Shown here piece by piece: positions 4,663 to 27,915 of a stretch of 64,000 bases of DNA. A model generated the notes under the pieces. That model had not been told where the DNA came from. It saw only the letters and a program-made list of their open reading frames with translations, and made no database searches. Where the stretch lies: NCBI GenBank assembly GCA_009746045.1, contig RPFO01001188.1, forward strand, positions 1 through 64,000. The letters run 5' to 3'. This stretch comes from Mesostigma viride (lineage: Eukaryota > Streptophyta > Mesostigmatophyceae > Mesostigmatales > Mesostigmataceae). The translations under genes and the position numbers were made by a program. Each line of letters begins with the position of its first letter. Positions within the stretch are counted from its first letter, which is position 1.

Positions 4663-5231
4663 TTACGACTCGTCGACGACCGCGGCCTTTTTGTACGCGG
4701 TGTCGGGCGTGTCGACTTCGAGTCGCGCGGCCGCGAAGAGGAGGTCGGACAGCCGGTTCAGGAAAGACACCGCCACGACCTCCACGCCCCCTCTCTCGCG
4801 ATCGCCGCCACGCGTCGTTCGGCCCTTCGCGCGACGGTCCGACACACGTGGAAACGCGACGCGGACTCCCCGTTACCGCCCGGGAGCACGAAGTTGGTCA
4901 GCGGCGGCGTGCGAGCGTCCACGCCGTCGATCCACTCTTCCATCCGACGGATCACGTCATCGAACATGCGGAGACGACATCGCGCGTCGCGCCGGGCATC
5001 GCCACACGGAGTGGACAGGGCGGAACCGACGTCGAGCAGTCGGGCCTGGATATCCGGGATGACGTCATCCTTCAACGCGGCGTCCTTACAAGTCTGGCGC
5101 GCGAGGCCCAGAAACGAGTTGGCCTCGTCGACGGCTCCCAGCGCCTCGAAGATCTCCTCCGACTTGTGCAGGTCGCCCGGGCCGTTGATCCGACTCCGGC
5201 CCTCGTCCCCTCGGCGCGTGTACAGCTTCAT
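4663..5231 (-). CDS. PduO-type ATP:cob(I)alamin adenosyltransferase (one frameshift)
   Basis: The enzyme family transfers adenosyl from ATP to cob(I)alamin, making adenosylcobalamin. ATG at 5231 opens MKLYTRRGDEG, the family's ATP-binding N-terminus (TRxGD-x-G), followed by KSEEIFEALGAVDEANSFLG (matching the family's GxVDExNxxLG). Further on are FVLPGGNG and RTVARRAERRV, and the C-terminal FLNRLSDLLFAAAR is in a different frame. One base is apparently missing in a C5 run near 4785 (plus-strand sense). Reading through it, the length would be about 189 residues, normal for the family. It is divergent from the primase gene with about 120 bp between starts. The same element carries a B12-dependent reductase at 21814-24420, which suggests the product matures that enzyme's cofactor. 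Identification is strong; whether the copy is functional depends on the frameshift being real. Confidence 0.85.
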
Positions 5232-5233
5232 GG

Positions 5234-5252
5234 CGGTATAGATACAAGAGGC
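5234..5252. promoter_or_regulatory. Shared TATA-like element between divergent genes
   Basis: The 120 bp between the adenosyltransferase ATG (minus, 5231) and the primase ATG (plus, 5355) contains TATAGATACAAG at 5237-5248, AT-rich in an otherwise GC-rich block. It could serve the plus-strand primase about 110 nt upstream of its start. A similar TGTATCTA string lies upstream of the minus-strand gene starting at 18849. The role is inferred only. Confidence 0.3.
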
Positions 5253-5354
5253 CTCGCTTTTCTCTCCCCCGCGACCGCACCCGTCGCTCGCGAACGACCG
5301 TCGAATCCACCGAGAGGACGCGTCGGACGTCCTGAGAGGGACCGGACATCCGGG

Positions 5355-6901
5355 ATGTCCACCATGTCCGGATGGCAGCCCTATTCGGAAGCCACGCGGT
5401 GGCTCGTGGACCACGAATGTTTCGTGGGGAAGACCGACGAGTACAGCCACCTGCTGCTGGACGGGTTCCAAGGGGGTAAAGCGTACATCCACACGGAGGA
5501 CCTGCCGTACTTCTATCGGAGGGTCATAGCGGACGCCAAGAACGGGAACCCGAACTACATCGTCGAGCAGAAGTCGCGGCCCGTGTTCCCGTTCCACCTG
5601 GACGTCGACTGCGAGGACGAAGGGGACATGTTCGACGCCATCTCGACCCAGTGGATCCCGCTTATCCAGGAGGTCCTGAGAGACGCGCTGCCGGAAGACG
5701 CGGACCACGAGGCGGTCGTCTGCCGCGCGCCCAACAAGGCGAAGAAGGACAAGGTCAAGACGGGCGTCCACGTCCACTTCCCCAGTCTCCTGGTGGACAC
5801 GTCCACCGCGCTCGAGCTGCGGTCGTACATCGTAACGCGTCTTCAAAAGGAGTACGGTCCGAGACCGGAAGACAATCCCTGGCCCGCCGTCATCGACCGT
5901 TCCGTGCTGCTGGACAACGGGATCCGCATGCTCTGGTCGTGGAAATCCACGAGGTGCGCGGAATGTCTGCGAGCGTGCAGGGACGTCGAGAAGGAACTGG
6001 GTGCCTGCCAGGCTCCCACGGGCGCCTCGGGATGGAAGTGTGCGTGCGTATCGTGCGCCGCTAAGAAGGAGAGGAGGAGGGCGTGTCCCAACAAGTGCTC
6101 GTACGGAAAGCTGTCGGAGAAGCGGGAGTACGCACCCATCGCCGTATACGACATGGCCGGGAACCGGTACCGGGACTTCGACCGCGAGGAATGCTTGGGA
6201 CCGGACTTCGCACTCCCTCTCATGTGGATGACGTGCGTCCGATGGCCCGACGACCAGATCCGGAGCCCCGAGAGCGTGCGCGCCTCCCCTCCGGCGTGGT
6301 ACAACGCCGAAGAGGATCCGACTCGCGAGGAGGAGCGGAGGAGGAAGAAGGCCGTACCGGCGAAATCCAAGGACGGGGGGACGCGACGCCGCAAGCGCAC
6401 AGGAGGACGGACTGCGTGTCCGACACGCGACCCGACTACCTGGTCGTGGCCAGGGCCGTCCGAGAGGCGATGGGCGCGTCCATCACCCGGCTGTACTGCG
6501 AGGGAGACGGGCTCAAGCGAGTATATCAGGCGTGGAGCCACCACAAGATGTGCCGCAACGTCGACCGCGAACACGTGAGCAACAACGTGTGGTTCGAGAT
6601 CACGTGTCGCGGCGTTTCCCAGCGGTGCCACGACGACGATTGCAAGGGGTACGCGTCCCCGCCCGTCCCCTTGCCCCCCGCCTACTATCGCCGCCTGTTC
6701 GTGTCGCCTGCAGGAGCGGACACGTCCGCCCCCCTTCCTACGCCCGCGCTTGCGCCTGCTCCTGCGACCGCGGGAAAAACCGCTTCCTCCACGACAGCGT
6801 CGTCAAGGGTGCTGGCCGGTCTCCTTCTCGCGAAAGTGGGATATGACCCGTCCAAAATCGTGTACGGTCGCTCGTGGAAAGGGAAGAAGTCAGGAAAGTA
6901 G
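5355..6901 (+). CDS. PrimPol-like archaeo-eukaryotic primase (one frameshift)
   Basis: Primase-polymerase of the archaeo-eukaryotic superfamily, expected to prime or extend viral DNA. Near residue 80 is FPFHLDVDCED, the metal-binding hhDhD motif. Near residue 140 is GVHVHFPSL, the sxH-type nucleotide-binding motif, and DNGIRMLWSWKS follows near residue 190. The C-terminal part holds a PrimPol/UL52-type zinc site: MCRNVDREHVSNN, then QRCHDDDCKGY and PLP. The C-terminal part is in a different frame; the switch lies near 6370-6420, where a G6 run is a candidate indel. ATG at 5355 is preferred, with a second ATG nine bases later. The product would be about 515 residues. No D5-type helicase fusion is seen, so this is the stand-alone PrimPol-like form. 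The 3' end meets the convergent capping-like gene. Confidence 0.8.
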
Positions 6902-6904
6902 GCT

Positions 6905-7417
6905 GCGTCGAAAATTCGGCGCCCATCTGCACGGTCATCGTAGGTTGGTTCATCAGCGCCACGATGTTTTGGCCGTGTGCGTAGTCCGGCCTTGCCCTTG
7001 AATTGTCCGGAATAAAGAGAACGTTCGGCCCCTTGAGATGCTCGGCCACCGCGACCGAATTGCTCTCCACCACGACTTGGCATTGCAGGGTCATCTCGTT
7101 ATACAGGTTCGTGCAGGGTTTCGGAAAATGCATCCCCGCGATCTCGCGAGCCGCGCGTAGACGTTCCGCGTAGGGCCGACCGATCAGGCACCGCCGCACG
7201 GACGCGAGACAATCGAACGCGCGGAACGCGGTCCGGACCCCTTGGCGCACGCACACGCCTTCGAGCACCGTGCCTTTGAACACCTTTGTCTTGAACGGGG
7301 GCATGCGCACGATCTGGACGGTCCCGTCCCAATGCACGAGCGCGCACACGGTCCGCCCCCCGCGCACTCGCACCAACGCCAAGAGACAGTGCGTGCCCGG
7401 GCCGTAGTCGCACGCCT
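6905..7417 (-). pseudogene. mRNA-capping guanylyltransferase-like gene, 3' portion (split by insertion)
   Basis: Read on the minus strand from 7417: ACDYGPGTHCLLALV, then VFKGTVLEGVCV (like motif III, GxLxDGE), AFRAFDCLASV and YAERLRAAREI (like motif IIIa), and PNVLFIPD (in the place of motif IV, DGLIFTP). The order and spacing resemble the nucleotidyltransferase fold of capping enzymes. The catalytic motif I lysine (KxDG) is not seen where CDYG stands, and motif V also lacks its lysines. The 5' part lies at 16559-16784, beyond the 9.1 kb insertion; the two parts share a continuous frame when the insertion is ignored. The 3' end is uncertain because the frame stays open into the convergent primase. 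It may be an inactive paralogue, or the fold call may be wrong. Confidence 0.45.
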
Positions 7418-8109
7418 GGGTGGTTTTACCGGATTAGGATACATTTTTTTGTCTAGGATACATTTGATGCACTGTGCAGTTTTCAGATGTGTTTGTGGGG
7501 GTTGATTGCGCCTAGCATGCATTTTATTGAAGCAATGAGTTTCCCAAGATATACATTATATAAACTAAGACAATTGACCCATTAACGCAATGAGACAACA
7601 TCAATGAGACAACATATGCCAATTGAAGGCTGCCCGCAACTTTATTCCAAGTTCATTATTATATGATTCCAAGACCATAACTCTTCCAAGACCGTACATC
7701 TTCAAGATATAGCACTACAGACACCCACGCGGCTTCCGCGGTCATCACGCTCCTCCTCCAAGACAACTCAACCTTACAGGACGTTGGGCCATCATACGTC
7801 CGGAATAATTGTGTCACTTATTACATAACCAAACTTTTTGAGGGATCGCCATGGTTGCATGGTTTCAACACATGCGCCCTGCACTCATGTGCATCAAAGG
7901 TGTTGCGTAGTGCCAACTCAGTGTCAAAGAACTGATTCAATAATATTTCCCGTATGGCCATGAAGGCCCACATGAGTTAAACATGGCCGAGAGTGATTGC
8001 ATCATCCTTCTTGGCGACATCGGTCTTGACGACGTCGATGGGGAAGACGGCAGCACCTGCATGTGAACAAAAGAATCCATGAACTGTGGCATCCAAAGGC
8101 AACAACATA

Positions 8110-9165
8110 TTAGCATCCCATTGAACACGAAGCCACGCTGACCCGGCCATCCAGCCGCCCACGCAGCCACAGAGCCAGCCAGCCACGCAGTGACGCACCC
8201 ACCCAGCCACACATCCACGCATCCACGCACCCGGCACCCCCCCCCCCCCCAGCCAGCCACGCAGCCACGCAGCCACGCAGCCACGCAGCAGCGCAGCCAC
8301 GCAGCCACACAGCCACGCACCCTCCTTTCCAGCCACGCAGCCACGCAGCCACGCAGCCACGCAGCCACGCAGCCACGCAGCCACGCAGCAGCGCAGCTAC
8401 ACGCAGCCACACAGCCACGCACCCTCCTTTCCAGCCAAGCAGCCACGCAGCCACGCAGCCACGCAGCCACGCAGCAGCGCAGCCACGCAGCCACACAGCC
8501 ACGCACCCTCCTTTCCAGCCACGCAGCCACGCAGCCACGCAGCAGCGCAGCCACGCAGCCACACAGCCACGCACCCTCCTTTCCAGCCAAGCAGCCACGC
8601 AGCCACGCAGCCACGCAGCAGCGCAGCCACGCAGCCACACAGCCACGCAGCCACGCAGCCACGCAGCCACGCAGCAGCGCAGCCACGCAGCCACGCAGCC
8701 ACGCAGCAGCGCAGCCACGCAGCCACACAGCCACGCACCCTCCTTTCCAGCCACGCAGCCACGCAGCCACGCAGCCACGCAGCCACGCAGCCACGCAGCC
8801 ACGCAGCCACGCAGCCACGCAGCAGCGCAGCCACGCAGCCACACAGCCACGCACCCTCCTTTCCAGCCAAGCAGCCACGCAGCCACGCAGCAGCGCAGCC
8901 ACGCAGCCACACAGCCACGCACCCTCCTTTCCAGCCACGCAGCCACGCAGCAGCGCAGCCACGCAGCCACGCAGCAGCGCAGCCACGCAGCCACACAGCC
9001 ACGCAGCCACGCAGCCACGCAGCAGCGCAGCCACGCAGCCACGCAGCCACGCAGCCACGCAGCCACGCAGCAGCGCAGCCACGCAGCCACACAGCCACGC
9101 ACCCTCCTTTCCAGCCAAGCAGCCACGCAGTCACACAGTCAAACCCCCCTACACCCCCCCCCCAC
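8110..9165. repeat. Minisatellite of 9-18 bp units (CAGCCACG)
   Basis: About 1 kb of tandem GCAGCCACG units interspersed with GCAGCAGCG and with the spacer CACCCTCCTTTCCAGC, repeated in a higher-order pattern. Long ORFs appear on both strands only because the units are multiples of three; they are not treated as genes. Confidence 0.9.
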
Positions 9166-9205
9166 ACACCCCCCCACCCCACCCACTCAACACTACACGA
9201 ATGAC

Positions 9206-9341
9206 TCACAAAGAACTGCTGCACCACCGATGATCCCTGCGGGAACTGCTCTGCTGCCGACGGTCCCTGCGAAAACTGCTGCAGTGCCGACAATGCCTGT
9301 GGAAACTGCGACATTGCCGACGCTGCCTGCGGGAACTGAAG

Positions 9342-9401
<60 letters not shown>

Positions 9402-9438
9402 AGTTGTTGCTGCAGTTGCTGCTGCAGTTGCTGCTGCA

Positions 9439-9477
<39 letters not shown>

Positions 9478-9825
9478 GCTGGACCACTTGTTTCTGCACC
9501 TCTTGACGCAGCTGCAAACCAAGCTCTTCAACCTTCTTGCTTTGGTTCTCCATAGCTCGTTGCATCTCTCTCATCGTCTGTTCCACGCCCACCAGTACGG
9601 GGGTCGGCGGCGGCAGCGGCTGGGTACGCTCTGGCTGGGTGCGCTCTGGCTGCCGTGCAGGACCTTGCCACATCGGCCGGCGCATTGGTGGTTTGCACCG
9701 GCCAAAAAATCTACTTTCATGGCACCAGATTTCTTTCCTAGCACCCATTTTCTACAATCGTCCCCGGCATAACACAAATCAATCAATTCGTCCATGTCAT
9801 CGCTTCGGCTATCAGCATCGGGCAT
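9206..9825 (-). CDS. Hypothetical coiled-coil protein with polyglutamine tract
   Basis: On the minus strand a short N-terminal segment (MDELIDLCYAGDDCRKWVLG) is followed, after a probable frame change near 9720, by a proline-rich linker, then a helical segment (TMREMQRAMENQSKKVEELG) and a long glutamine run encoded by (CAG)n with CAA interruptions. After the polyQ the composition becomes Arg/Ser-rich and unconvincing. The Cys-Asp N-terminus and coiled coil resemble Gag-like or transposon accessory proteins, but I do not recognise the family. It lies inside the 9.1 kb insertion and is host-like rather than viral in codon use. Confidence 0.35.
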
Positions 9826-9969
9826 AGTTCCCGTGGCTAGTGCCCATCATTCTTTCCACCTTGAGCGGGGCGAAGTCACGAATTCAAGCGCGAAGTGCAT
9901 TTGAATCAAGCGGGAACTGGGTGACACTGCTTGAAGACGTGCAGCTCCAAGGCATGCAAATGATGCAAT

Positions 9970-11220
9970 GTATGAAAGATACGATACGCAAAGTTCAGGT
10001 GTTCAGGTGAAGCCGTGAAGACGTGGTGAAGACAGGTGAAGACGCGGTGAAGACGTGAAGACGTGAAGACGTGAAGACGTGAAGACACGATACGGCAAGT
10101 TCAGGTGAAGTTCAGGTGTTCAGGTGAAGCCGTGAAGACGTGAAGCCGTGAAGCCGTGAAGACGTGGTGAAGACAGGTGAAGACGCGGTGAAGACGTGAA
10201 GACGTGAAGACGTGAAGACGTGAAGACGTGAAGACACGATACGGCAAGTTCAGGTGAAGTTCAGGTGTTCAGGTGAAGCCGTGAAGACGTGAAGCCGTGA
10301 GGCCGTGAAGACGTGGTGAAGACAGGTGAAGACGCGGTGAAGACGTGAAGACGTGAAGACGTGAAGACGTGAAGACGTGAAGACACGATACGGCAAGTTC
10401 AGGTGAAGTTCAGGTGTTCAGGTGAAGCCGTGAAGACGTGAAGCCGTGAAGCCGTGAAGACGTGGTGAAGACAGGTGAAGACGCGGTGAAGACGTGAAGA
10501 CGTGAAGACGTGAAGACGTGAAGACGTGAAGACACGATACGGCAAGTTCAGGTGAAGTTCAGGTGTTCAGGTGAAGCCGTGAAGACGTGAAGCCGTGAAG
10601 CCGTGAAGACGTGGTGAAGACAGGTGAAGACGCGGTGAAGACGTGAAGACGTGAAGACGTGAAGACGTGAAGACACGATACGGCAAGTTCAGGTGAAGTT
10701 CAGGTGTTCAGGTGAAGCCGTGAAGACGTGAAGACGCGAAGACGTGAAGACGTGGTGAAGACAGGTGAAGACGCGGTGAAGACGTGAAGACGTGAAGACG
10801 TGAAGACGTGAAGACGTGAAGACACGATACGGCAAGTTCAGGTGAAGTTCAGGTGTTCAGGTGAAGCCGTGAAGACGTGAAGCCGTGAAGCCGTGAAGAC
10901 GTGGTGAAGACAGGTGAAGACGCGGTGAAGACGTGAAGACGTGAAGACGTGAAGACGTGAAGACACGATACGGCAAGTTCAGGTGAAGTTCAGGTGTTCA
11001 GGTGAAGCCGTGAAGACGTGAAGACGCGAAGACGTGAAGACGTGGTGAAGACAGGTGAAGACGCGGTGAAGACGTGAAGACGTGAAGACGTGCATGCAAG
11101 GTATCAAAGATACGATACGCCGCAAGTTCAGGTGAAGTCGTGAAGACGTGAAGACGTGAAGACGTGAAGACGTGAAGACGTGAAGACGTGAAGACGTGAA
11201 GACGTGAAGACGTGAAGACC
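9970..11220. repeat. Satellite array of GTGAAGAC sub-repeats
   Basis: About eight higher-order units of roughly 140-160 bp. Each starts with ACACGATACGGCAAGTTCAG and continues with GTGAAGACGTGAAGCC-type 9-mers. The units differ by small changes (GAAGCCGTGAGGCC against GAAGCC), as in a recently amplified satellite. No gene is supported in it. Confidence 0.9.
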
Positions 11221-11309
11221 AGGACTGACACGTGAAGACTGGGACGTGAAGGCAAGTTGCAGCACTCGGCCGCTGCAGTCGCACGCAGGTAGAAACGAGT
11301 ATTGCTGCT

Positions 11310-11630
11310 TGAATCTGTCAAGACCCCATCGAATGTAAAACAGGTTTTTCGTAAAGAAATCCGATTTGTGGGCGGGCTTTATATTATTATATATTGCTTC
11401 TGTCCAAGCACTACCGGATGTAAAACAGTATACTTCTTGAAGAAATAAGTTGGGGCTTTGTTGGGCGTCACATTTGACCGGTGGGCGGAGTTTCCTGCTT
11501 CTGTGAAGGCGCCATCGAATGTAGATCAGTAGATTTTCTAAAGAAATCTGAGTTGTGGGCGGGGCCTTTATTGCTTGTGTCCATCCACCACCGGATGTAG
11601 AACAGTAGACTTATTGAAGGTGAATCACGA
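11310..11630. repeat. Degenerate tandem repeats of about 90 bp
   Basis: Three or four diverged units with ATCGAATGTAAAACAG or ACCGGATGTAAAACAG, then AAAGAAATCYGA and TGTGGGCGGGGCTTTATT. The 11640-12700 stretch after it is mixed, non-repetitive sequence in which I see no supportable gene. Confidence 0.6.
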
Positions 11631-12714
11631 TACAACAGCTGTAGTTGACAACATCATGACCGGCACATCTTTCCCCCACCGCTGCTCAACCCGGTCCCCC
11701 CCAAACTCCTCCACACTTGCCCACCTTTCCACCCTCCTCCACGGCCCGTTGTGTTTGCAGGCGTCGGCACAAAGGGAGGAGGCCGTGCGAGCCGGGAAAC
11801 TCACGGTATGGTTTGATTTCTAGTTTTGTATTAGGACCCTAGGGTAGCTATGTTATATAGGCATGTCTGACAGCATAGCTCACCATTTCATTACCATGGG
11901 ATGCTGAGCATACCATTTCCAGAGAGGTAAGTCAGTCACTCTTCGCAGTTGACAAGTCAGAGAAAGCAATCAAGTGCAGCGTTCACAACTCTTGCCGCTC
12001 GTAACCTTTTGTCTGCCCTGTTTGGCAGCTCCCTGTCTTTGCTTTCTCTCGTATTTCTTTCTTTTGTCTCTTTTCTACATCTTTCTTTGCTAATTCTTGA
12101 ATATATGATGCTATTGTAGCATCCTTCTAGCGCGGATCGCTCTTAATATCCTTCTCGCGCACGTTTCCTCGCTTTTTCTCATGTAAGAGCGTCTTCCCTG
12201 CCCATGCAGCGTGTACCTGGTGTGTGTGGCTCTGCCTTGCCAATCACAACTGACCGACATGCTGGTCAGGCACTGCAGGTCGTTGCCCTTGCGTGTGTGA
12301 ACCTGCTGTTTTGGCTGTTCCCATGGCCGCTGCGTGTGTCCGTGAATGATACCATGGGAGGGAGACTTCTCCCATGGGTCCCCTTCGCTGACACTCGTGA
12401 TGTAGGTTCGCGTCGACTTGTTTCTCTCACTGTGCCCATATTGGCCTCGCACGGCTTTGTCTCTCATTCCTTGTTTGCATGCGGCGGCGTGTAGACCATC
12501 ATCTTCATCCGAGACCGCAACAGCAAGGGCCAGGAGGTGAGTAATTGCTGAGGGCATGGCTCCTATCCCTTGATGAGTCTAGCGCCATGTACCACCCTCT
12601 ATGCCTGCATATAGGTGACGCATTGAAAATGCAAGCATCTTACTAGAAGTAGCACGGGCCTCCGAGGTGAGATTCTGCGCAGGCCTCATGATCCCAATGG
12701 ACCTGCGAAGCGCA

Positions 12715-13700
12715 TGGCGCGCATGGGCGGCCGGCCGGCGCAGCTGGCATGCGGCGGGGCGGGGCTGTCGACGGGCGGCGGGGCAGGGCCGTCGGCGCGC
12801 GGGGGCCAGCGGCGCTGCCGGTGCGCGCGGGCGGCGGGCCGGCGCACCTGGCATGCGGCGGGGCAGGGCTGTCGACGGGCGGCGGGGCGGGGCAGTCGAC
12901 GGGCGGCGGGGCAGGGCCAGCGGCGCTGCCGGCGCGCGTGGGCAGCGGGCCGGCGCAGCTGGCATGCGGCGGGGCGGGGCTGTCGACGGGCGTCGGGGCA
13001 GGGCTGTTGACGGGCGGCGGGGCAGGGCCGTCGGCGCGCGGGGGGCCAGCGGCGCTGCCGGCGCGCGCGGGCGGCGGGCCGGCGCACCTGGCATGCGGTG
13101 GGTCGGGGCTGTCGACGGGCGGCGGGGCGGGGCAGTCGACGGGCGGCGGGGCAGGGCCGTCAGCGCGCGGGGGGCCAGCGGCGCTGCCGGCGCGCGTGGG
13201 CGGCGGGCCGGCGCAGCTGGCATGCGGCGGGGCGGGGCAGTCGACAGGCGGCGGGGCGGGGCAGCCGGTGCGCGGCGGGGCGGCGCCGTCGGCGGGCGGC
13301 GAGGTGGCGCAGCCAGCGCGCAGCGAGGTGGCAGCGGCGGCGCAGCCTGCATGCGGCGGGGCAGGGCTGTCGACGGGCGGCGGGGCGGGGCAGTCGACGG
13401 GCGGCGGGGCAGGGCCGTCGGCGCGCGGGGGGCCAGCGGCGCTGCCGGCGCGCATGGGCGGCGGGCCGGCGCAGCTGGCATGCGGCGGGGCGGGGCTGTC
13501 AACGGGCGGCGGGGCAGGGCCGTCGGCGCGCGGGGGGCCAACGGCGCTGCCGGCGCGCGTGGGCGGCGGGCCGGCGCAGCTGGCATGCGGCGGGGCGGGG
13601 CAGCCTGTCGACGGGCTACGGGGCGGGGCAGCCGGCGCGCGGCGGGCCGGCGGCGCAGCCGGCGGGCGGCGGAGCGGCGGAGCGGCGGAGCGGCACAGCC
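12715..13700. repeat. GC-rich tandem array
   Basis: Roughly eight imperfect units of about 120 bp built from GGCGCAGCTGGCATGCGGCG, GTCGACGGGCGGCGGGGC and GGGCCAGCGGCGCTGCCG. It is open in several frames on both strands, yielding Gly/Ala/Arg-rich or Pro-rich translations that are artefacts of composition. Confidence 0.85.
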
Positions 13701-13725
13701 GGTGCCTGAAAAACGCGGTCGCTCA

Positions 13726-15256
13726 ATGAAGGTGCACCACGCCGTCTTCTTCCAGGTACAGGGCAACACAGAGACCTGGTTGTCCTACCGGACCACGGAG
13801 TCCCAAAAGACGCCGTGGCAGCCCGCGGGGACTCGACAGGAAGGCGCGCCACGGTGCGGGAAGGCGATGACACAGCCATACAGGTTTGATGCGGAGGGGC
13901 GGCCGCTGTTTGGCGTCCGACTTGTGGATCCAGACCGCATTCCGATGTTGCAGGACACCCCAGCCTTCGCACCATTGAACATGGAGTTTCTGGGGAAGGA
14001 GCTGGAGTCGATCAAAACAAGGGTCGAGAAGTTGCCCCATGGCATCTGGCAGTGGTACTTTCCGCCCGACACCATCAAGCCAAACAAGGCCTTTTTTCGC
14101 AAGTCAAGTCCCACATGCCCCTGAGGAGGTGCCTGAGGAGTGGCGCCCTTTGCCGTGGCCATCTCGCGCGGACATCTCCGCCCTGCGTGAGCACGATGCA
14201 GCGCCTGAACCACCACCGACGCAAGAAGAGCACTTCATGGCGTTGGTCGACGCAGAGGCGGTGCGCGTCACCCCGCTGGTAGACCGAGTTCGTCATGATG
14301 GCCACACACAGCAGGAATGGGCGGCAGAAGACAGGGCCATGGCAGCCAAGGTCGCTTACTTGAAGCGCATGCAAGGCGTTGAGAAAGGCTCCGCTGTTCT
14401 ATACTGGCACCCTTCAGCTGGTATTCTCTGCAACTCGAAGCTCACGTGGACTCCAGTCCTCGTTGGCATCATCAAGGAGGTGGTTGCGAAGGAGGATGGC
14501 GGCCAACCTTCTATTGAGCTCTTTGTATACCGCGCTAAGCATTTGCATGACACGTGGCACCCGTGGAATACAGACATTGCGCAATGGCCCCATCCGCCAA
14601 CCACTGCGGCGCACACGGTGATCATCACCGCCTCAGACCTCGTCTTGACACAAGTGGTGGGCAAGCGAGGTCAGCCGCCCCATGGAGTCTCCTTGGGTGC
14701 GAACGAAAAGCTCACCAAGGAGTGCCTAAAGGCGCTGAAGGAGGTGCCCTATGACGCGGAACACCCGGTCGTGAAGTGGCAAGATGCTGAATGCTCGAAG
14801 GGCATCGTCGGCATGGCGAAGGCATGCTGGGAAGGCGTAACGCTGCAGGTCAAGAGTGGCAGCCGCAACCTCGTAGGGCAAGTCGTGTGTCATTGGGCGT
14901 CGGAGCGTGTGACATCCGCGGACGGTCGCACCGAAAGCCGGGACGGCAGGTACCATGGTCGTGTCGCTGTTGTCGACACGCAAAACGACATGGTAGCCAT
15001 GTACTGGGGTGCCCGTTGGGAGGAGGACGCGGTTTCTTGCGTGCCTCTCCACGAGCTGGAGGCACAGATCTGCGGGTGCCCCGGTGTGGTCGTCCCTGCG
15101 TTGCAAGCGCCGGATATCACCCTGGCCGAGGCTCGATTGCGCGAGATGGTTCCACCCAGCGACGTTGTGGCGGAGAACAACAACGCAGGCGCCTCCCGGC
15201 GTCGGAAGCGAGCGCTCATCCTTGCCGATGACGATGACGACGACGACGACTGCTGA
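13726..15256 (+). CDS. Hypothetical protein, about 500 residues, frameshifted at a T6 run
   Basis: ATG at 13726 follows the GC-rich array. The first part includes PYRFDAEGRPLFGVRLVDPD and HGIWQWYFPPDTIKPNK, then the frame shifts at TTTTTT near 14093. The second part contains YLKRMQGVEKGSAVLYWHPS, VLVGIIKEVV, HTVIITASDLVLTQVV and GQVVCHWASERV, and ends in a run of aspartates. Amino-acid usage looks like a real protein, with repeated beta-strand-like patterns and tryptophans, but I recognise no domain. AGGTACAG at 13752 could be a splice donor. It is probably the coding content of the 9.1 kb insertion or a host gene captured in it. Confidence 0.5.
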
Positions 15257-15285
15257 AGCGCAAGCAGCGTTGTTGTCATTGAGCT

Positions 15286-15700
15286 GCTCATGTGCTGCTG
15301 CTGCTGCTGTGCTGCCATGCTATTGCTGCTGCATTGCTGCCGTACTGCTGCTGTGCTATTGTGCTGATGTGTTGCTGCATTGCTGCCGTGCCGCTGATGT
15401 ATTGCTGTCGTGCTGCTGTGTTGATGCACTGCTGCATTGCTGCCGTGCTGCTGAGCTAGTACTGCCTATTAGTGAATTTCCTATCAATGGACTATAGTCC
15501 ACTGATAGGAAATTCAGGAATCGGCATACTAAGTTGCTGCTGCGCTGACTTGTGCTCCTGCTATGCGGCCGTGTTGATGTGCTACAGTTGTGCTGCTGCT
15601 GTGCTACGGTCATGCTGCTGCTGTGTTGCTGGGCTGATGTGTTGTTGCATTGATGTAGTGGCTATTGTTCCGCTACTACAATTTGCTACTGATGCCGCTG
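15286..15700. repeat. (GCT)n-like trinucleotide-rich region
   Basis: Imperfect GCTGCT/GTGCTG/TTGCTG repeats immediately downstream of the Asp-rich ORF. The apparent Cys/Leu-rich or Gln/Ser-rich reading frames are repeat artefacts. From 15700 to 16530 the sequence is AT-rich and I see no gene. Confidence 0.75.
15483..15514. repeat. Near-perfect palindrome
   Basis: TGAATTTCCTATCA around 15473-15486 pairs with TGATAGGAAATTCA around 15498-15511 in inverted orientation, with ACTATAGT at the centre. It can form a hairpin of about 20 bp. It interrupts the trinucleotide repeat and may be a small insertion or recombination product. Confidence 0.6.
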
Positions 15701-16558
15701 CTGGTGCTTTTTTGCATGTCAGTGCCCGCTATGTTCACACCACTGTTGCCGCGGTTGGTATCGCGTGATTTCCACCGGTTGTGCGTTGACATGTGTTACT
15801 CATGCATTTGCCCCTATATTTGGTAGCACGCGGTTTCGCGTTAGTTAGGTGCAGACAGCTGCATGTAGACAAACATCTTGTTTAAGTCGGTCAATTAACT
15901 GTTCTTGACGCATCATGGTCCAAGTCGACCGACCTGTAGGGACCAGTAGAGCAATTGTCTAGGAGAAAGAGCGTGATCGCTGCAGAAGCCGCGTGGCAGC
16001 CGTGGCTGTACCTGTAGTACGACCTGCATATATATGGATACTGTATTTGGATACTGGGTTGTTTATCAATTCTGGTTTTAATTTATTTAGTGTACCTGGT
16101 GTTGGCATGCCAACTCAGTGCTAAACTACTTTATGCACAATGATGCAACTTGATGCTATAGTGACGTGCCACGATGTAACTTTATTAACTTCACCATTAG
16201 TCATGGGGTCAATAGGATTGCTCATTATGCCATGTTAACATGAACCATGGGTTACGTAATAGTGAAAACAGTAATCATGATGCTCCACTTGAAGTCTCCA
16301 ACATGGTCATGTTTGGAATTTTATTGATCATATTCACAATATATGAAAAGAGACAACAAACGTGGAAGCATGGCACGCCGAGGCCGATAATATATGTGTG
16401 AAATATGAAAAGAGACAACATCTTTGGCAAGCATGATCATATTATGCTTGCCAAACATATTAATGATATCGACCATGTCCAGAAACCATGTTTGCCAATG
16501 GTGCATTTAGGATACATTTGAAGCCGTGCAAATGTATCCTAATCCGGTAAAACCACCC

Positions 16559-16784: not shown

Positions 16785-16883
16785 ATTAGAATCTTTCGAT
16801 GCCGAACGCATAAAGGCGCGCCGACCCACCCTGAACCGTGACGAACGCGCCTTCGCACCCGTGAAAGGATCGAGACACTCTCC

Positions 16884-17477
16884 ATGTCCTCGTCGGACGC
16901 CCGGGACGCGACGATGTCCGGACGCCCGCCCCCAGCCATGCGTCTGCTCGAGCGGTCGCTCCAGCGGTTTTATAGGGACGATCGCAACTTCGACGTCCTG
17001 GAAAAGCTCACGCACCGCGACGGACAGCGTGACAGCGACGTCCCGTCCCTTCGCGTGATCGAGTGGCTGGTCACGAACTACGCGCGCAACAAGGCCGTCG
17101 AGTACGAGCTGTCCGAGGAGACCGCGCCCCTGAACCTGTACATGTCGTACCGGGAGCACCTCGACTTCTACTCGAAACGCATGTTCGACCCGTTCGCGCG
17201 TCGGAAGAAGACCGTGCTCGAGAACGGCGACAAGAAGATCGAGACAACACCCGGCCAGATGAACTTCTTCCGCTGGGCGATCACGAACGGCGTGGTCGAC
17301 TACGCCATCCGGAACCAGGACAGCATACGGAGAGACCTGCCCAAGTGCAAGTGCCGAAAGCAAGAGGGCGGCGGAGGCGGGAGGACCAAGAGGAGGTGCA
17401 AGTCCTCGGACCTGGCCGCCATCATCAAGCCTCGCGTGAAACGGTTCAAGAAGAAGTTCGTCGTGCGTTTCAAATGA
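16884..17477 (+). CDS. Conserved giant-virus protein of unknown function (LEWLVTNY family)
   Basis: Intact 197-residue ORF from ATG 16884; ATGs at 16914 and 16938 are also possible. It contains FDVLEKLT, SLRVIEWLVTNYARNKAVEY, YMSYREHLDFYSKRMFDPFA and TTPGQMNFFRWAITNGVVDY, and ends with a lysine/arginine-rich tail rich in CKCRK. From memory this order (SLR-x-hydrophobic-EW-hydrophobic-VTNY, then YS-K-x-x-FDPF-x-R, then GQ-hydrophobic-NFF-x-WA) is a protein present in very many Nucleocytoviricota genomes and without known function. It is one of the better indications that the block is of giant-virus origin. The basic C-terminus suggests nucleic-acid contact. Confidence 0.65.
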   Translation: MSSSDARDATMSGRPPPAMRLLERSLQRFYRDDRNFDVLEKLTHRDGQRDSDVPSLRVIEWLVTNYARNKAVEYELSEETAPLNLYMSYREHLDFYSKRMFDPFARRKKTVLENGDKKIETTPGQMNFFRWAITNGVVDYAIRNQDSIRRDLPKCKCRKQEGGGGGRTKRRCKSSDLAAIIKPRVKRFKKKFVVRFK

Positions 17478-17535
17478 TTCTGGGACGCGGTCGCTCGAAT
17501 TATTCTTCTGCTCCGTACTCTGAAGAAGGCCCGGG

Positions 17536-17886: not shown

Positions 17887-18050
17887 GTAGGATGATGGAT
17901 TTTATTGCGTACATAATAAAATACGATTGCGAACATTCACTCGTGACCGTCACTTGCATCCCTCTGTGAATTACCGTCAACGAAGAAGTGTTTCCTTAAA
18001 CGCGTTCCTCCCGCCCCCGAGTTTATGTTCGTCTCCATTGACATCGCGGA

Positions 18051-18398: not shown

Positions 18399-18459
18399 GA
18401 AGAAGTTACACGGACAGATCGACGGTTAGATTACGTTGCGACGGTTATCCTATTCGGCG

Positions 18460-18849
18460 CTAGACCCCGTGACGAATCATGTCCCTGAACCGCGGCATCT
18501 CGCGCCCCTCCGGCCTCCGTTCGCGCGCATCGTTCGCCGGCTCCGGCACCCGATCGGTATCGCTGGAGAGCCCGGCGCGCGTCTCGCCGCGGCGGAGGAA
18601 CTTGAATCCCTTGAGCGCGATGAACCCGGACACCAAAACGCCGAGGATCGCGTCCAAATGGCGCGACAACGCCTCGATCTTGCGTCTCATCCGCTCGACG
18701 CACTCGTCCGAGGCACCGCGGAGGGTGAGGACGCACAGCAGTCTCGCCAGTCCCTCCGCGGCTCGACTCATGACATAGTACAGCGCCCACAAGGCCGCGG
18801 CGAAGGCGGTGGCCCACGTCGCCAAAGTCACCACCCATCGAGGCGCCAT
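18460..18849 (-). CDS. Membrane protein, unknown
   Basis: 129 residues from ATG 18849 on the minus strand. A first hydrophobic helix (VVTLATWATAFAAALWALYY) and a second (LDAILGVLVSGFIALKGF) are separated by a basic segment with MRRKIEALSRH. The C-terminal 40 residues are charged and probably disordered. There is no recognised family. It faces the next minus-strand membrane-protein gene (18902-19171), with 52 bp between that gene's stop and this start, suggesting a small cluster of virion membrane proteins. Confidence 0.5.
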   Translation of the reverse strand: MAPRWVVTLATWATAFAAALWALYYVMSRAAEGLARLLCVLTLRGASDECVERMRRKIEALSRHLDAILGVLVSGFIALKGFKFLRRGETRAGLSSDTDRVPEPANDARERRPEGREMPRFRDMIRHGV

Positions 18850-18901
18850 CGCGCAGGCCGGCTAGCTAGATACAGGAAGGGTGACATATTTCTACGCGGC
18901 T

Positions 18902-19171
18902 CTAGCCCCCGCCCACGAGCTGGAGAGCGGACGCGATGGGAGTGGGAGACCCGAGACCCGTCCTGGAGTCCTTCCACGCGAGGTACGCGAGGCCCGCGGC
19001 GGACACGAGACCGACCGAGAACATCCCGTACTGCGTCCACCAGCACCGCCAGTCGGTCGAACGGCAGCGGGTGACCTTCTTCAAGTAGGTGTGACTCGTG
19101 TAGGTGTGGAAGAGGATGATCGCGGCGAGGGCGCTCATGTAGTACGCGTCGAGCGTGATCTGGATGGCCAT
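18902..19171 (-). CDS. Small membrane protein, unknown
   Basis: From ATG 19171 the 89-residue product has hydrophobic segments YMSALAAIILFHTYT and YGMFSVGLVSAAGLAYLAW, with a basic loop containing two cysteines (TRCRSTDWRC) between them. A longer version would need a GTG start at 19255. It lies just downstream of the large fibre-like gene on the same strand. The 19172-19242 interval holds only AT-rich spacer sequence. Confidence 0.45.
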   Translation of the reverse strand: MAIQITLDAYYMSALAAIILFHTYTSHTYLKKVTRCRSTDWRCWWTQYGMFSVGLVSAAGLAYLAWKDSRTGLGSPTPIASALQLVGGG

Positions 19172-19242
19172 TCGGGTCGCGCGTCGTGTTATAGTTATCG
19201 CCCAGAAAAAAAATGCGTATCGGACGCCAGCCTTAGCTCGAC

Positions 19243-21753
19243 TCAATAATTCCACATCTCGGCCACCAGGTCCGCCGCCGCGTCCGTGATCGAACCGAGC
19301 TCGTTCGAGTGCACGGACCCGTGAGGCACAGGGTTACCGAGGATCGTGATCGTGCTGGCCGAGCCGCGCGTCTTCACTATCTGGAGACTCTCGTCGTCCG
19401 CGATCCGGAAATTGTAGCTCACGGGGATCGGCGCGTCGGCGTACTCGTCCGCGTACCGGTACAGTTGCATGTTGGAGATCTGCGCGTTCCGCTCGGCACT
19501 CCCCGCCACCCCTTGGAAACTCGCGTGGTTCGTGTCCACGAGTCGCAGGTTCTTGTACCACACGTCGATCGGCTTCTCCCCGCTCCCGTACGCGGGCGAC
19601 CCCAGACGGACCGCCACCGTTTCCGTGAGGCCCAGCGTGACGTCCCACGTCTGCGCGCCTGCCGACTCATCGCTCAGGAGTTTCGCGGCGGAAAGGGTCT
19701 GCGGGACGCCGTTGACGTACAGCACGACCGCGCCGTCGGTCCCGCTCACGCCGACCCCTACGCCCAGCTGGAACTCGCGCGACGCCACGACGGGGGAAGA
19801 GGTCTCCGCGTAGACCAGACCGTTGGACGCAAGCAGGGCGCCGCCCTTGAACACCCACACGCGGACGTGCTCGCCGGGGGTCGAGAGGGAACCGAACGCG
19901 AACAGTTCGAGAGTGCCCGACGGACTCGCGGCAATCGTCGCGACGGACGTGTTGCGCGCGAAAGGGTAGCCCGCGCCCGTGCACGCGCCGAGGGACGTCT
20001 TGGGTTTCACCGTGACCGTCGCAACCGCGTGGTTCCGTCCTCCGCGGTACTTCATGGACGCGTGGGACGCGGACACGTACGACGCGGTCGTGGCCGTGTC
20101 GAATTTGGACTTCCACTCGCGGTCCGTCTGGTCGAACTCCCCGGGCCCGTGGTTCGAAAGGAAGGTCGGCTGACCCACGCGGGCCGAGGAAGTGTTTAAG
20201 GGGTAGTGATGCGTCTCGGCCGCGCCGTCCGGGAGCGAACTCAGCAGGATGTCGGTCCCGGGCGCCTTGCGAGACGCCGAAGCGACCAGGCGCGAGAACA
20301 CGAGCTGACCGCCCTCGAAGTGCCAATACGCCCCCGTGTGGTCCCCGGCCTCTTGCACGTCGCCCTTCCTCCACGTGATGGCGCGAGGGGCCGCCACCGA
20401 GTCCACCTTCCCGTCCCCCTCGATCCGGATCCCCGCCCCGTCCGCGTAGGCGTTCGTCGGCGGTGTGGGGATTTGGATCTTGATGTTGTCCACTCGCACC
20501 TCGTGTCCGAGTCCGAGATCCTGGACGTCGCCGAGGACGAGCGAGGGGAGGGACGGGATCGCGGTGACCGCGAGCGACGTGCCCCCCGTCGCGGACGCCC
20601 GGATCACGTTGTTCACGTACACTTTCACGGTGGACAGGTGCGGGTCGACCGCGTCGTACTCGCGGACAATCCGGAACGCGTACGGCACGTTCGTCGCGAA
20701 CAAGAACGCGCCGATGACGGGGTCCGCCCCTCCTCCGGTCACTTGGAAACTCGCAGCGTTCACCAGGGACAGAGTGAAGGATTGGGCCTCGTCCGTCACA
20801 TGTCCGTACCGCGCGACGCCCCTCCCGGCGACGGGGAGACCGTCCACGAACGTGACGTTGAACCCCACGTCGAAGGACTCCGTGACGGACGGGAACGCCG
20901 CGTTGGCCACGGAGGCCGTGCCGACCCCGTCGACGGAGGTCTTGAACTGCCCGCCGAGGATCGCCCCTCCTTCCACGGTCATCGCGATCGCCGACCCCGC
21001 CACGTCGACGAGCGAGTCCCCGTCGAACGGCCAATGAGCGACCAAGGTGTGGGCGGGGTTCGCGAGGGAGAGGGTCGTGTCCTCCACCTCGTTCGTGACC
21101 GCGTTGATCGTGACGCTCGACACCAATCCGGCGATCTCCACGTTGCCGACGACCTTCACGGTGCCGCTCGCGGGCCGCAATTCTATATCTCCGACGGACG
21201 AGGAGATCACGCCTTTGCCCCCGCCGGTCGCGGTCACAACGAGGTCCGAGTCGACGGCGACGTCCGAGGTCCCGGACAGCCGCAGGGTCGATCCGAGCGA
21301 TTTGACGTCGGACGCGAGCAGGTCGTCGTGTACGGCCAGGTCCCCGTGCACGTTGACCCTGTGCGTGGCCTTGTTCACCTGGGATATCGATCCGACGTCG
21401 CTCCCGTTCTCCCTGTTCGGTACCATGTCGATGTCGGTATACCCCGCCAGTCGTACCGCGCCACGTGCCGGAGCGACTTCCAACCCCGTCGACGTGGTCG
21501 TGATCCGGCCGTTGTTCACCAAATCCCCGTGGACGGCCAGATCGCCGTGGACGTTGACACGATGCGTGGACTTGTTTATCTGCGAGACCGCCCCGATGGC
21601 GCTGTTGTTCTCCTTGTTCGGCAGCAGGTCGACGTTGGTGTGGCCCACGAGAAGGACATTCTTCGCGTCCGTGAGTCCGTCGCCGGACCACAGCTCGTTG
21701 GCGTAGAGTTTCCTGGCCTTGCACGTCCCGAGGTTCTTCAGGACATCGCCCAT
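19243..21753 (-). CDS. Large virion-fibre/adhesin-like protein with ConA/LamG-like domains
   Basis: Intact 836-residue ORF from ATG 21753. The N-terminal part has two direct repeats of about 75 residues, recognised by VDLLPNKENNSAIGAVSQIN and IDMVPNRENGSDVGSISQVN, each followed by THRVNVHGDLAVH. Such repeats resemble phage and giant-virus tail-fibre stems. A LamG/concanavalin-like domain starts near residue 240 (LVAHWPFDGDSLVD) and a second beta-sandwich region lies near 530-800 (VRVWVFKGGALLAS, VVLYVNGVPQTLS). There is no signal peptide. It probably decorates the virion or mediates host attachment. It is divergent from the ribonucleotide reductase gene with 60 bp between starts. The frame is intact over 2.5 kb, unlike the genes near 2-7 kb. 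Confidence 0.7.
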   Translation of the reverse strand: MGDVLKNLGTCKARKLYANELWSGDGLTDAKNVLLVGHTNVDLLPNKENNSAIGAVSQINKSTHRVNVHGDLAVHGDLVNNGRITTTSTGLEVAPARGAVRLAGYTDIDMVPNRENGSDVGSISQVNKATHRVNVHGDLAVHDDLLASDVKSLGSTLRLSGTSDVAVDSDLVVTATGGGKGVISSSVGDIELRPASGTVKVVGNVEIAGLVSSVTINAVTNEVEDTTLSLANPAHTLVAHWPFDGDSLVDVAGSAIAMTVEGGAILGGQFKTSVDGVGTASVANAAFPSVTESFDVGFNVTFVDGLPVAGRGVARYGHVTDEAQSFTLSLVNAASFQVTGGGADPVIGAFLFATNVPYAFRIVREYDAVDPHLSTVKVYVNNVIRASATGGTSLAVTAIPSLPSLVLGDVQDLGLGHEVRVDNIKIQIPTPPTNAYADGAGIRIEGDGKVDSVAAPRAITWRKGDVQEAGDHTGAYWHFEGGQLVFSRLVASASRKAPGTDILLSSLPDGAAETHHYPLNTSSARVGQPTFLSNHGPGEFDQTDREWKSKFDTATTASYVSASHASMKYRGGRNHAVATVTVKPKTSLGACTGAGYPFARNTSVATIAASPSGTLELFAFGSLSTPGEHVRVWVFKGGALLASNGLVYAETSSPVVASREFQLGVGVGVSGTDGAVVLYVNGVPQTLSAAKLLSDESAGAQTWDVTLGLTETVAVRLGSPAYGSGEKPIDVWYKNLRLVDTNHASFQGVAGSAERNAQISNMQLYRYADEYADAPIPVSYNFRIADDESLQIVKTRGSASTITILGNPVPHGSVHSNELGSITDAAADLVAEMWNY

Positions 21754-21813
21754 TTCCGCGCGTACTTACCTAACACGGCGGATATTTCTTGAGACGCGTT
21801 CGGACGCGCACAA

Positions 21814-24420
21814 ATGTCCCAACCTACCGATATACCCCTCCCGATGTCCGGCGGCACCGCGAAGTCCGCCGCCTCGTCCAAGATGGCGCTCGAGCCGACG
21901 AACCCGACGGATCGGGCGATGGCGATCTGTCTGCGAACGTACCACCGCCCCCTGGAGGACGACGTGCACCTGGAGCGGTGGGACCAGGTCGTGGACCGCG
22001 TCATCCGCCACCAGGAGTGGCTGTGGGTGCGCGCGAAGGGGTCGCCGCTGGAGGAGCGGGAGTTCCGGGAGCTGGAGGACCTGCGAGAGCACATCCTGCA
22101 TCGGTACATCGCCCCGGCCGGCCGCACGCTCTTCCTGGGCGGCACGGAGTTGAGCCGGAGGAGGGAAAGTTGCATGTACAACTGTTCGTTCACGATCGTG
22201 GAGACCGTGTACGACCTCGTGGACGTCCTGTGGCTGCTGCTGCAGGGTTGCGGGTGAGTTCATACGTCCATGAGCGGCGGAGTTTCCGGTCGTTGAATGG
22301 TCCGTTCGCTCGCCTCCAAGGATCTTCTCAGGTCTCTGACTTGCGCTCTAAGGACGTCGATCTCGCGTTGGATCTTGAGCGTCTCCGTTTCCGCCAGCTT
22401 GGCCTTCCAGTAGTCCACTTCTGCTTTCAGCGTGTCCATGCTTTCCGTCAACCCTATCACGTGGTCACGCAACGTCTTAATCTCGTTATAGCGGACTTGT
22501 TGTACGCTAAGCGACTCTGGGTACATCGCCTTCAAGCCCTCTATGTCCATTTTCGATTTCCACGACTGTGAGTAATCGCTTCTCATGCCTTGAATTTACC
22601 ATCCTCCTCCACACGATTTACGCGCATATGAACGCAGGGTCGGGTTCAAGCCGGTCACCGGGACGCTGAACGGGTTCGCGTGCGCCATCCCGACGATCGA
22701 GGTGATCCGGTCGACGCGCGCGACGGGCGGAGGGCGCGAGTCCAACAGGGAGACGTGGGACCCGGACACGCGGACGTGGACGATCTCCGTGGGCGACTCG
22801 GCCGTCGCGTGGGCGAAGGCGGTCGGCAAGCTGATGGCGGGAAAGTACCCGGCCGCCAAGCTCGTGCTCGACTTTAGCGAGATCCGCCCGCCCGGGACCC
22901 TCCTCAAAGGGTATAAATGGCGGTGTTCCGGGGACGCGCAGATCGCGAACGCGTTCAAGAAGATCTCCGATATCATGTCCACACGCGCCGACCAGCTGCT
23001 GACGAAGATGGACATCCTGGACATCGTCAACCTCCTGGGCACGATGCTGTCCAGCCGCCGTTCGGCGGAGATCGCGTTGTGCGATTACGGAGACTCCGAG
23101 TGGCGGGAGTTCGCGACGGCCAAGAAAGACTTCTGGGTGAACAACGCGCACCGCCAGCAGTCGAACAACAGCCTCGTTTTCCAGACCGCGCCGTCCGTCG
23201 AGCAGGTCGAGGAGCTGTTCGAGATCATCCAGGAGGGAGGGGGGTCCGAGCCCGGCCTGTTCAACCTGGAGGCCGCCAGGAAGCGGGCGCCCTGGACGCG
23301 GGGCTGCAACCCGTGCGGTATGTGAACAAACCGAGCCGTATCCCTTGTCGCGTACACCTCTCTGTCTCGTTCCCGATCGTCGCATTGCCACAAAACTAAT
23401 ACTGTCACGCGTCACATGTCGGACCTTGCCGCCCTTGATGCCGCAGGCGAGATCCTCTTGGCGAACAAGTCTTTCTGCAATCTGACCGAGGTCAACATCG
23501 CCGCGTTCAAGGAGGGCAACAAGGCCGGACTGGAGCGCGCGCTCGTCCTCGCCGGCCGCATGAACTACCGACAGACCAACGTCGACCTCAGGGACGAGAT
23601 CCTGCAAGAGGCATGGCACCTGTCGAATCAATTCCTCCGCCTTTGCGGCGTGGGGCTCACCGGGATCGTGGCGAGGCCCGACCTGCAGCCGTACGATTTC
23701 AGGAGGATGCGAAACATCGCCACCCACGCCGCGTACTCGATGGCGGAGGAACTCAAGCTTCCGTACCCGAAGAACGTCACGTGCATCAAGCCCTCCGGCA
23801 CGTTGTCCAAGATCATGTCCACGGCCCAATGGGGCGAGGTCCCCGAGGGCGTTCACAAACCCCTCGGCAAGTACATCTTCAACAACGTGACGTTCTCGCG
23901 CCACGACCCGATCGTCGAGCGGTTCCGCGTCGCCGGATACCGCGTCTTCGACAAGCCGTTCGAATCCGAGTCGGTCCTCGTGACGTTCCCGATCTCGTAC
24001 GCCAACGTGCCCTTCGCGAAGAAAACCGTCACGCGCGCCGACGGGACGACCGAGGAGATCGAGGTCAACGCCGAGACGGCCGTGGACCAACTGGAGAGGT
24101 ACAAGACCCTCATGAACAACTGGTGCGACCAGAACGTCAGCTGCACCGTGTCCTACGACCCCAAGGAGGTCCCCGCGATCGTGTCCTGGCTAGTCCGCAA
24201 CTGGGACGCGTACGTCGGCGTGTCGTTCCTCTACCGCGCCGATCCCACCAAGACCGCCAAGGACCTGGGGTACGTCTACCTGCCGCAGGAGGTCGTGAGC
24301 AAGGCCGCGTACGACGAGTACGTTGCGCGCATTTCGGCCGTCGAATACGACGGAGTTTTCCACAGTGACGAGATGATCGACGTGGTCGAGTGCGCGGGGG
24401 GCGCGTGCCCCGTCCGCTGA
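21814..24420 (+). CDS. Adenosylcobalamin-dependent (class II) ribonucleotide reductase, three exons
   Basis: Reduces ribonucleotides to deoxyribonucleotides using adenosylcobalamin. Exons 21814-22253, 22638-23317 and 23447-24420 join in frame at GT...AG introns to give 697 residues, close to the 739 of Lactobacillus RTPR. Expected cysteines are all present: C124 in MYNCSF, C373 in NPCGEIL, C384 in SFCNL (the same 11-residue spacing as C408/C419), and the C-terminal pair C689/C694 in ECAGGACP. Other family features are LLLQGCGVGFKP, LVLDFSEIRPPG and CIKPSGTLSKI. NPCG is split between exons 2 and 3. The gene is divergent from the fibre-like gene and followed by another structural-like gene. Viral reductases are usually class I, so this is unusual; the adenosyltransferase at 4663-5231 fits as cofactor supplier. 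Confidence 0.92.
22254..22637 (+). other. Spliceosomal-type intron 1 of the reductase gene
   Basis: Donor GTGAGTT at 22254 and acceptor CGCAG ending 22637. Removing these 384 bp restores the conserved LQGCGVGF without any frame change. Almost the entire intron is occupied by an antisense ORF (22260-22586). Confidence 0.88.
22260..22586 (-). CDS. Coiled-coil protein encoded antisense inside intron 1
   Basis: 108 residues from ATG 22586 to a stop six bases from the intron's donor site. The sequence is strongly helical with heptad-like spacing: QQVRYNEIKTLRDHVIGLTE, MDTLKAEVDYWKAKLAETET and IQREIDVLRAQVRDLRRSLE. It has a short Ser/Tyr/Trp-containing N-terminus (SDYSQSWKSKMD) and a Pro-rich end. 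Amino-acid use is that of a real coiled coil and the A+T content is higher than in the exons. Function is unknown. It could be an independent small viral gene that became an intron, or an intron that gained a gene. Expression would be antisense to the reductase pre-mRNA. Confidence 0.6.
   Translation of the reverse strand: MRSDYSQSWKSKMDIEGLKAMYPESLSVQQVRYNEIKTLRDHVIGLTESMDTLKAEVDYWKAKLAETETLKIQREIDVLRAQVRDLRRSLEASERTIQRPETPPLMDV
23318..23446 (+). other. Spliceosomal-type intron 2 of the reductase gene
   Basis: 129 bp with donor GTATGTG at 23318 and acceptor CCGCAG ending 23446. ACTAATAC near 23396-23403 is a good branch-point candidate, 45-50 bases before the acceptor. Splicing completes the NPCGEI active-site motif. 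Confidence 0.88.
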
Positions 24421-27783: not shown

Positions 27784-27915
27784 TTCGCGATCACGGAATA
27801 TCGGTAAATGCATTCGTATTATACAAAATAAACGCAGACAGGTTCGAATATGATTCGATCAATAAAATCCTCTTCCTTCTTGTAGTTACCGACCTTCCAA
27901 GGCGTAACGCGTACG

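Follow-up and report, generated by a model that had tools for sequence, protein, structure and literature searches.

A putative cobalamin-dependent nucleotide module in endogenous giant-virus elements of the alga Mesostigma viride

The genome of Mesostigma viride carries viral elements in which the gene of a PduO-type cobalamin adenosyltransferase recurs in divergent orientation near the gene of a monomeric class II ribonucleotide reductase (RTPR), an enzyme of the adenosylcobalamin (AdoCbl)-dependent type. The best overall explanation, to which we give a probability of about 0.78, is an endogenised algal nucleocytovirus with a B12-dependent RTPR and, often, its own coenzyme-making PduO. An earlier note on this DNA had proposed a viral cobalamin-dependent module; that reading is supported by the recurrent linkage of the two genes and by the prim-pol gene that neighbours PduO, the activities of the two enzymes being predicted from sequence.

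Gene content of the window

The window is the whole stretch of DNA analysed, 64,000 nucleotides long (contig C1454, positions 1-64000), and the genome searched is the 440 Mb assembly of 2243 contigs. The following features were identified.

2781..3209, minus strand: piece of a DUF3179 gene, within the viral block (PF11376, E 1.8e-13)
4663..5231, minus strand: PduO-type cobalamin adenosyltransferase, last fifth frame-broken (PF01923, TIGR00636, C-terminus in another frame)
5358..6575, plus strand: viral prim-pol (AEP, C962R type), arranged head to head with PduO (PF23162, E 8e-17; PF18188, E 1.6e-11)
about 7417..16558, unstranded: transposon-like insert with inverted terminal repeats of about 30 bases (empty site in sister copies)
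16866..17465, plus strand: DUF7197 gene (PF23827, E 1.2e-23)
19246..21753, minus strand: long repeat protein, fibre-like, encoded between PduO and RTPR (836-aa open frame)
21814..22253, plus strand: RTPR exon 1, with Cys119 (TIGR02505 2-127, E 2.8e-32; 1l1l alignment)
22254..22637, plus strand: RTPR intron 1, GT-AG (splice-site sequence)
22638..23317, plus strand: RTPR exon 2, with the radical-site Cys408 at its end (TIGR02505 128-378, E 9.5e-52)
23318..23446, plus strand: RTPR intron 2, GT-AG, separating the Cys408 codon from that of Glu410 (1l1l alignment, splice-site sequence)
23447..24420, plus strand: RTPR exon 3, with Cys419, Cys731 and Cys736 (TIGR02505 375-724, E 9.6e-90)
26440..33377, plus strand: Ig-like (Big_12) surface or fibre proteins, downstream (PF19078)
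34022..37198, plus strand: helicase, downstream (PF04851, E 7.3e-5)

Profile searches with the part of PduO that precedes the frame break (4782-5231, minus strand) gave 130.7 bits for PF01923 (cut-off 24) and 114.3 bits for TIGR00636 (cut-off 108.45). The C-terminal part, down to position 4663, sits in another frame, and the window copy consequently has no complete PduO with the C-terminal NRLSD-type motif, which is out of frame. This break is common to six of the seven close PduO copies, the window included; the seventh, on C596, lacks it, yet it does not read through either. A gene model of Mesostigma viride (P0124) is 99% identical to the window PduO. The enzyme is complete, with its NRLSD-type motif, in P0125, a protein from outside this genome, and in the copies at L002, L003, L007 and L008. 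At two loci where the RTPR exon 3 is identical to that of the window, PduO matches extend over profile positions 1-170 with no stop. The window copy, with its broken PduO frame, is hence a decaying endogenous remnant of a family in which full-length members occur.

The RTPR gene (21814-24420, plus strand) consists of three exons and two GT-AG introns; the exon borders were set from the splice-site sequence, and the stop codon of exon 3 ends at 24420. Searched exon by exon, the window RTPR covers TIGR02505 from end to end (2-724 of 724). The whole-protein cut-off of this profile is 340.05 bits, and exon 3 alone reaches 301.7 when the exons are scored separately. All five catalytic cysteines of the Lactobacillus enzyme (1l1l) were located in the window RTPR by alignment and at the exon ends: Cys408, the thiyl radical site, and the pairs Cys119/419 and Cys731/736. 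GT-AG ends and a kept reading frame were seen by eye, on the DNA, in 9/9 gaps (two each in the window, C2076, C1466 and C667, one in C2086), and by these properties the gaps are probable spliceosomal introns. Intron 1 occurs in the window, in C446 and in the sister copy C2076, where it is about 130 bases long, and is absent from C2086, C1466 and C667; an additional intron lies within exon 2 in C1466, C667 and C446. Every RTPR lineage read has a gap at the radical site, the position of which shifts by a few bases. A dozen or more of the RTPR matches fall within open reading frames of 663-744 aa, a length that suffices for an intronless gene.

Both members of the pair in this viral block, an adenosyltransferase and an AdoCbl-type class II reductase, are therefore confirmed by profiles. 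The spacing first claimed for them (about 17 kb, or about 7.5 kb once insertions are removed) also holds: we measured 16.6 kb from start to start, and about 7.4 kb minus the insert. This 9.1 kb insert, absent at the same site in all four sister copies examined (C2076, C1324, C596, C871), is outside the module and makes up most of the distance between PduO and RTPR. The region as a whole is dense in repeats and inserts. The protein encoded at 19246..21753 gave no match in Pfam or NCBIfam profile searches, and a fibre-like function is suggested by its repeats.

Linkage of PduO and RTPR across the genome

The search with PF01923, in which 99 of 99 candidates were scored, produced 82 matches that merge to 69 PduO loci, while at least 120 matches were obtained with RTPR exon 3 (120 of 179 candidates scored). 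A listed RTPR was found within 40 kb of 48 of the 69 PduO loci, at actual distances of 7.5-30 kb and involving 46 distinct RTPRs, and the orientation is divergent in 48/48 pairs. Random placement predicts such a neighbour for 2.2% per PduO locus. The pairing is not due to chance; the 48 pairs are nevertheless not 48 independent events, because the copies share descent. No PduO occurs within 40 kb of 74 of the 120 listed RTPRs, many of them on long contigs, which indicates that the pair is frequent, not obligatory, and that RTPR needs no linked PduO. For the other 21 of 69 PduO loci no RTPR is listed within 40 kb; one of these is the host gene and several are close to the end of a contig, and the PduO on C1324 has no listed RTPR at this distance despite a contig of 4.4 Mb. 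The locus on C1413, of which 14 kb had been read, was considered as RTPR-less and then rejected, an RTPR having been found 22.9 kb from its PduO.

Gene order was read directly in five other copies (C2076, C2086, C1466, C446 and C667), and PduO, the prim-pol, DUF7197 and RTPR are present in all of them. Together with the 48 linked loci, these copies provide the co-occurrence in related elements that the earlier note had expected of a true viral pair. The prim-pol was aligned across six copies. The fibre gene is found in C2076, C2086, C1466 and C667 and was not found in C446; DUF3179 also adjoins PduO in C2086 and C1466, and the helicase also lies downstream of RTPR in C1466 and C446. C2076 belongs to the window family, with about 7 kb between PduO and RTPR, start to start. 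C2086, C1466 and C667 are close to one another and form, with C446, four copies more distant from the window. Both genes were also encountered outside this genome, PduO as P0125 (70% identical) and RTPR exon 3 as P0004 (90%). For each, the source is a single Logan contig 15,035 bases long; the two thus probably share one contig and represent a probable case of the pair outside this genome.

The divergence between copies was used to estimate selection by the Nei-Gojobori method, over 10 pairs per gene. Compared with C1466, C2086 or C667, the window PduO is 47-48% identical and its RTPR exon 3 is 72-78% identical. The dN/dS ratio of RTPR exon 3 is 0.09-0.28 in 10/10 pairs. For PduO it is 0.17-0.50 in 9/10 pairs, the tenth being saturated; the highest values (0.43-0.50, near saturation) come from pairs with the window copy, and the values among the three closest viral lineages are 0.17-0.31.

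Viral setting and ancestry of the two genes

The contig C1466 encodes a YqaJ recombinase, an A22-type resolvase, DUF5832 and a DUF5906 (D5-type) helicase, and relatives of these viral genes adjoin sister copies of the window family. The NCLDV capsid profile PF04451 has at least 150 matches in the genome (150 of 507 candidates scored). Capsid linkage was evaluated for 43 of the 120 listed RTPRs, those beyond contig position 140 kb: 16 have a listed capsid at 150 kb or less, where 2.2% is expected for each, and 27 have none listed within that distance. Five of the 16 capsid-linked RTPRs are also near PduO (C1413, C1446, C1912, C1579 and C667). The capsid of C1446, the sole one read, matches capsid chains of algal viruses, including 1m4x ('PBCV-1 virus capsid'). 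The elements thus possess a double jelly-roll major capsid, encoded outside this window, and the capsid, helicase, resolvase and YqaJ hallmarks indicate a virus of the nucleocytovirus (NCLDV) type. Queries with the D5-type helicase, DUF7197 or the capsid found no relatives of the virus in IMG/VR. As to class I reductase, the search for its R2 subunit (PF00268) found two loci genome-wide, on contigs where no RTPR, PduO or capsid match is listed; as far as this subunit tells, their position away from the listed viral matches agrees with dependence of the virus lineage on class II.

The RTPR tree comprised 136 rows and was built by a quick method with SH-aLRT support only. The window, P0004, P0005, C1466 and C2086 were grouped (94), and this group sits with Chlamydiae rows in a set of 38 rows (89). 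The nearest identified neighbours of the RTPR thus appear, with modest support, to be Chlamydiae. The PduO tree comprised 83 rows, for which 72 of the database matches P0128-P0243 were taken in. The viral PduO and the host MMAB-like gene L001 form one clade of 13 rows (support 100/98), separate from the bacterial rows included, and the placement points firmly to a eukaryotic, MMAB-type ancestry of PduO. A common donor, raised in the earlier note as something that phylogeny could reveal, is seen in neither tree, MMAB-type ancestry for one gene standing against Chlamydiae for the other; differing donors fit a pair assembled within the virus lineage. The same note had named a host PduO brought in by rearrangement as one way in which its proposal would fail. 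The host-like side of this objection holds in so far as the ancestry is eukaryotic. Local rearrangement does not hold, since a viral prim-pol adjoins PduO both in the window and in 5/5 further copies.

Proposed working and known systems

The host MMAB-like gene is separate from the viral elements, on C1591, and a host methylmalonyl-CoA mutase was detected as nine exon matches in one gene region of 23 kb. Possession of the mutase implies that the host uses AdoCbl and, together with its own MMAB-like gene, that it handles cobalamin. A search for MMACHC (PF16690) gave no match, and the control was likewise without a match. In other eukaryotes the host-type MMAB enzyme is mitochondrial. The viral PduO proteins start right at the conserved catalytic N-terminal motif, which makes the cytosol a plausible place of action.

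We propose that the viral PduO, as an ATP:cob(I)alamin adenosyltransferase, would convert host-derived cobalamin and ATP into AdoCbl, and that it would act in the cytosol or the virus factory, beyond the reach of the mitochondrial AdoCbl supply of the host. With this coenzyme, RTPR would reduce NTPs and so furnish viral dNTPs, in place of a viral class I RNR. As a history, we lean slightly towards an algal giant-virus lineage in which class I RNR gave way to a class II enzyme with its nearest known relatives in Chlamydiae, joined by a captured eukaryotic MMAB that lacks the N-terminal extension and makes AdoCbl outside mitochondria, with B12-dependent replication as the outcome. The data suggest that giant viruses of this kind tied their replication to vitamin B12.

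RTPR might instead draw its AdoCbl from the host, with PduO as a passenger or in another role such as trapping cobalamin or feeding the host mutase. The host owns an MMAB-like gene and a mutase, and its AdoCbl could suffice; phages with RTPR generally depend on their host for B12 according to the main text of PMC10547690; and the 74 of 120 RTPRs without PduO within 40 kb agree with such a supply. A passenger PduO is opposed, however, by its constant place and orientation by RTPR at 48/69 loci and by its dN/dS of 0.17-0.31 among the three closest viral lineages, and we consider this explanation rather unlikely.

The broken PduO frame of the window family, the transposon-like insert and the near-identical copies on many contigs could also mean that all copies are dead and that the linkage merely reflects a single ancient integration that was multiplied within the genome. 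Full-length PduO frames in other copies, low dN/dS between lineages, their divergence to identities of 45-48% in PduO and 72-78% in RTPR exon 3, and a probable relative that comes from a different sample (Logan) make this very improbable; even if right, it would leave the module in ancestral viruses uncontradicted. Hardly credible, and already contradicted, is the notion that both are ordinary host genes trapped by rearrangement near viral debris: prim-pol, DUF7197 and RTPR accompany PduO in divergent copies, RTPRs are linked to capsids and the host MMAB-like gene lies elsewhere, on C1591, against which only the eukaryotic ancestry of PduO and the wealth of repeats and inserts in the region can be set. 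We thus retain an endogenised nucleocytovirus with a B12-dependent reductase.

RTPR is known from marine virioplankton, and the hosts of RTPR phages must make B12, or import and modify a precursor, as described in the main text of PMC10547690, where the word 'adenosyltransferase' has 0 occurrences. Matches to RTPR exon 3 were found in 1158 of 50,697 phage records. The phage enzymes (virioplankton, Roseobacter phage SIO1) belong to the same monomeric AdoCbl-dependent class, with 51.8-61.0% identity to the RTPR described here for the 15 listed of the 1158; these viruses infect bacteria, whereas the elements described here reside in an algal genome. The RTPR of phages is well known, but the abundance of PduO in viruses is not. 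Alignment-based searching with PduO retrieved five IMG/VR records (P0125 alone found none), and RTPR is present in 0/5 of these records, which may be fragments. GenBank phage records with PduO number 15; the one examined, from Acinetobacter phage MD-2021a, has trp and btuB genes as neighbours and seems to be bacterial DNA. No description of a viral PduO and RTPR pair was found in the literature searched, which by itself does not establish absence from print.

If our reading is true, the replication of an algal virus hinges on a vitamin that algae often get from bacteria, and giant-virus production is linked to B12 supply. The elements would then be a eukaryotic counterpart to B12-dependent phages, with a coenzyme step in addition, and would exemplify a switch of RNR class in a giant virus, with introns gained at and near the radical site. 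Since the copies are of varied divergence, the order in which RTPR, introns and PduO were gained or lost is testable within one genome.

Class I RNR is usual in Nucleocytoviricota. The present elements share with such viruses the capsid, the DUF5906/D5-type helicase, the A22-type resolvase, YqaJ and the possession of a viral RNR, and differ from them in that the reductase is of the cobalamin-dependent class II. The likeness on the side of the adenosyltransferase is to eukaryotic MMAB (PDB 2idx), which P0125 matches over 2-176 (E 1.5e-31). The eukaryotic protein P0126 has a long N-terminal extension, whereas the viral PduO begins at the catalytic motif; and in contrast to eukaryotic MMAB and other PduO-type enzymes, the enzyme here is virus-encoded and adjoins a reductase.

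Insertion and duplication in the window

Two features of this kind were noted:

7417-16558: a 9.1 kb insert that resembles a transposon and has inverted terminal repeats of about 30 bases
46590-47405 and 53936-54751, on opposite strands: a gene for an EsV-1-7 cysteine-motif protein, present twice

The insert, which lies between the genes for the PduO-type cobalamin adenosyltransferase (PduO) and the monomeric class II ribonucleotide reductase (RTPR), contains long minisatellite arrays and breaks up a minus-strand open frame. Its site was empty in all four sister copies examined. Both EsV-1-7 gene copies belong to a large inverted duplication.

The first intron of the RTPR gene is shorter by about 250 bases in the sister copy on contig C2076 than in the window. 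An antisense open frame of 108 amino acids was also observed inside the window intron (22260-22586), for which no relatives were found among the loci compared.

A phage-labelled record with a PduO match

The GenBank record of Acinetobacter phage MD-2021a is filed as phage. Nevertheless, it is probably bacterial DNA, because trp and btuB, along with further bacterial genes, lie in the stretch examined.

Capsid, RTPR and PduO matches across the genome

Contigs C547 and C2059 of the algal assembly each carry two RTPR matches spaced by about 10 kb, possibly resulting from tandem duplication. The PduO match at C77:155-649 contains five internal stops (four TGA and one TAG) and may represent an old pseudogene or foreign DNA. 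Genome-wide, we counted at least 150 matches to the NCLDV capsid (507 candidates) and at least 120 to RTPR. The load of endogenous giant-virus DNA in this genome is therefore unusually large.
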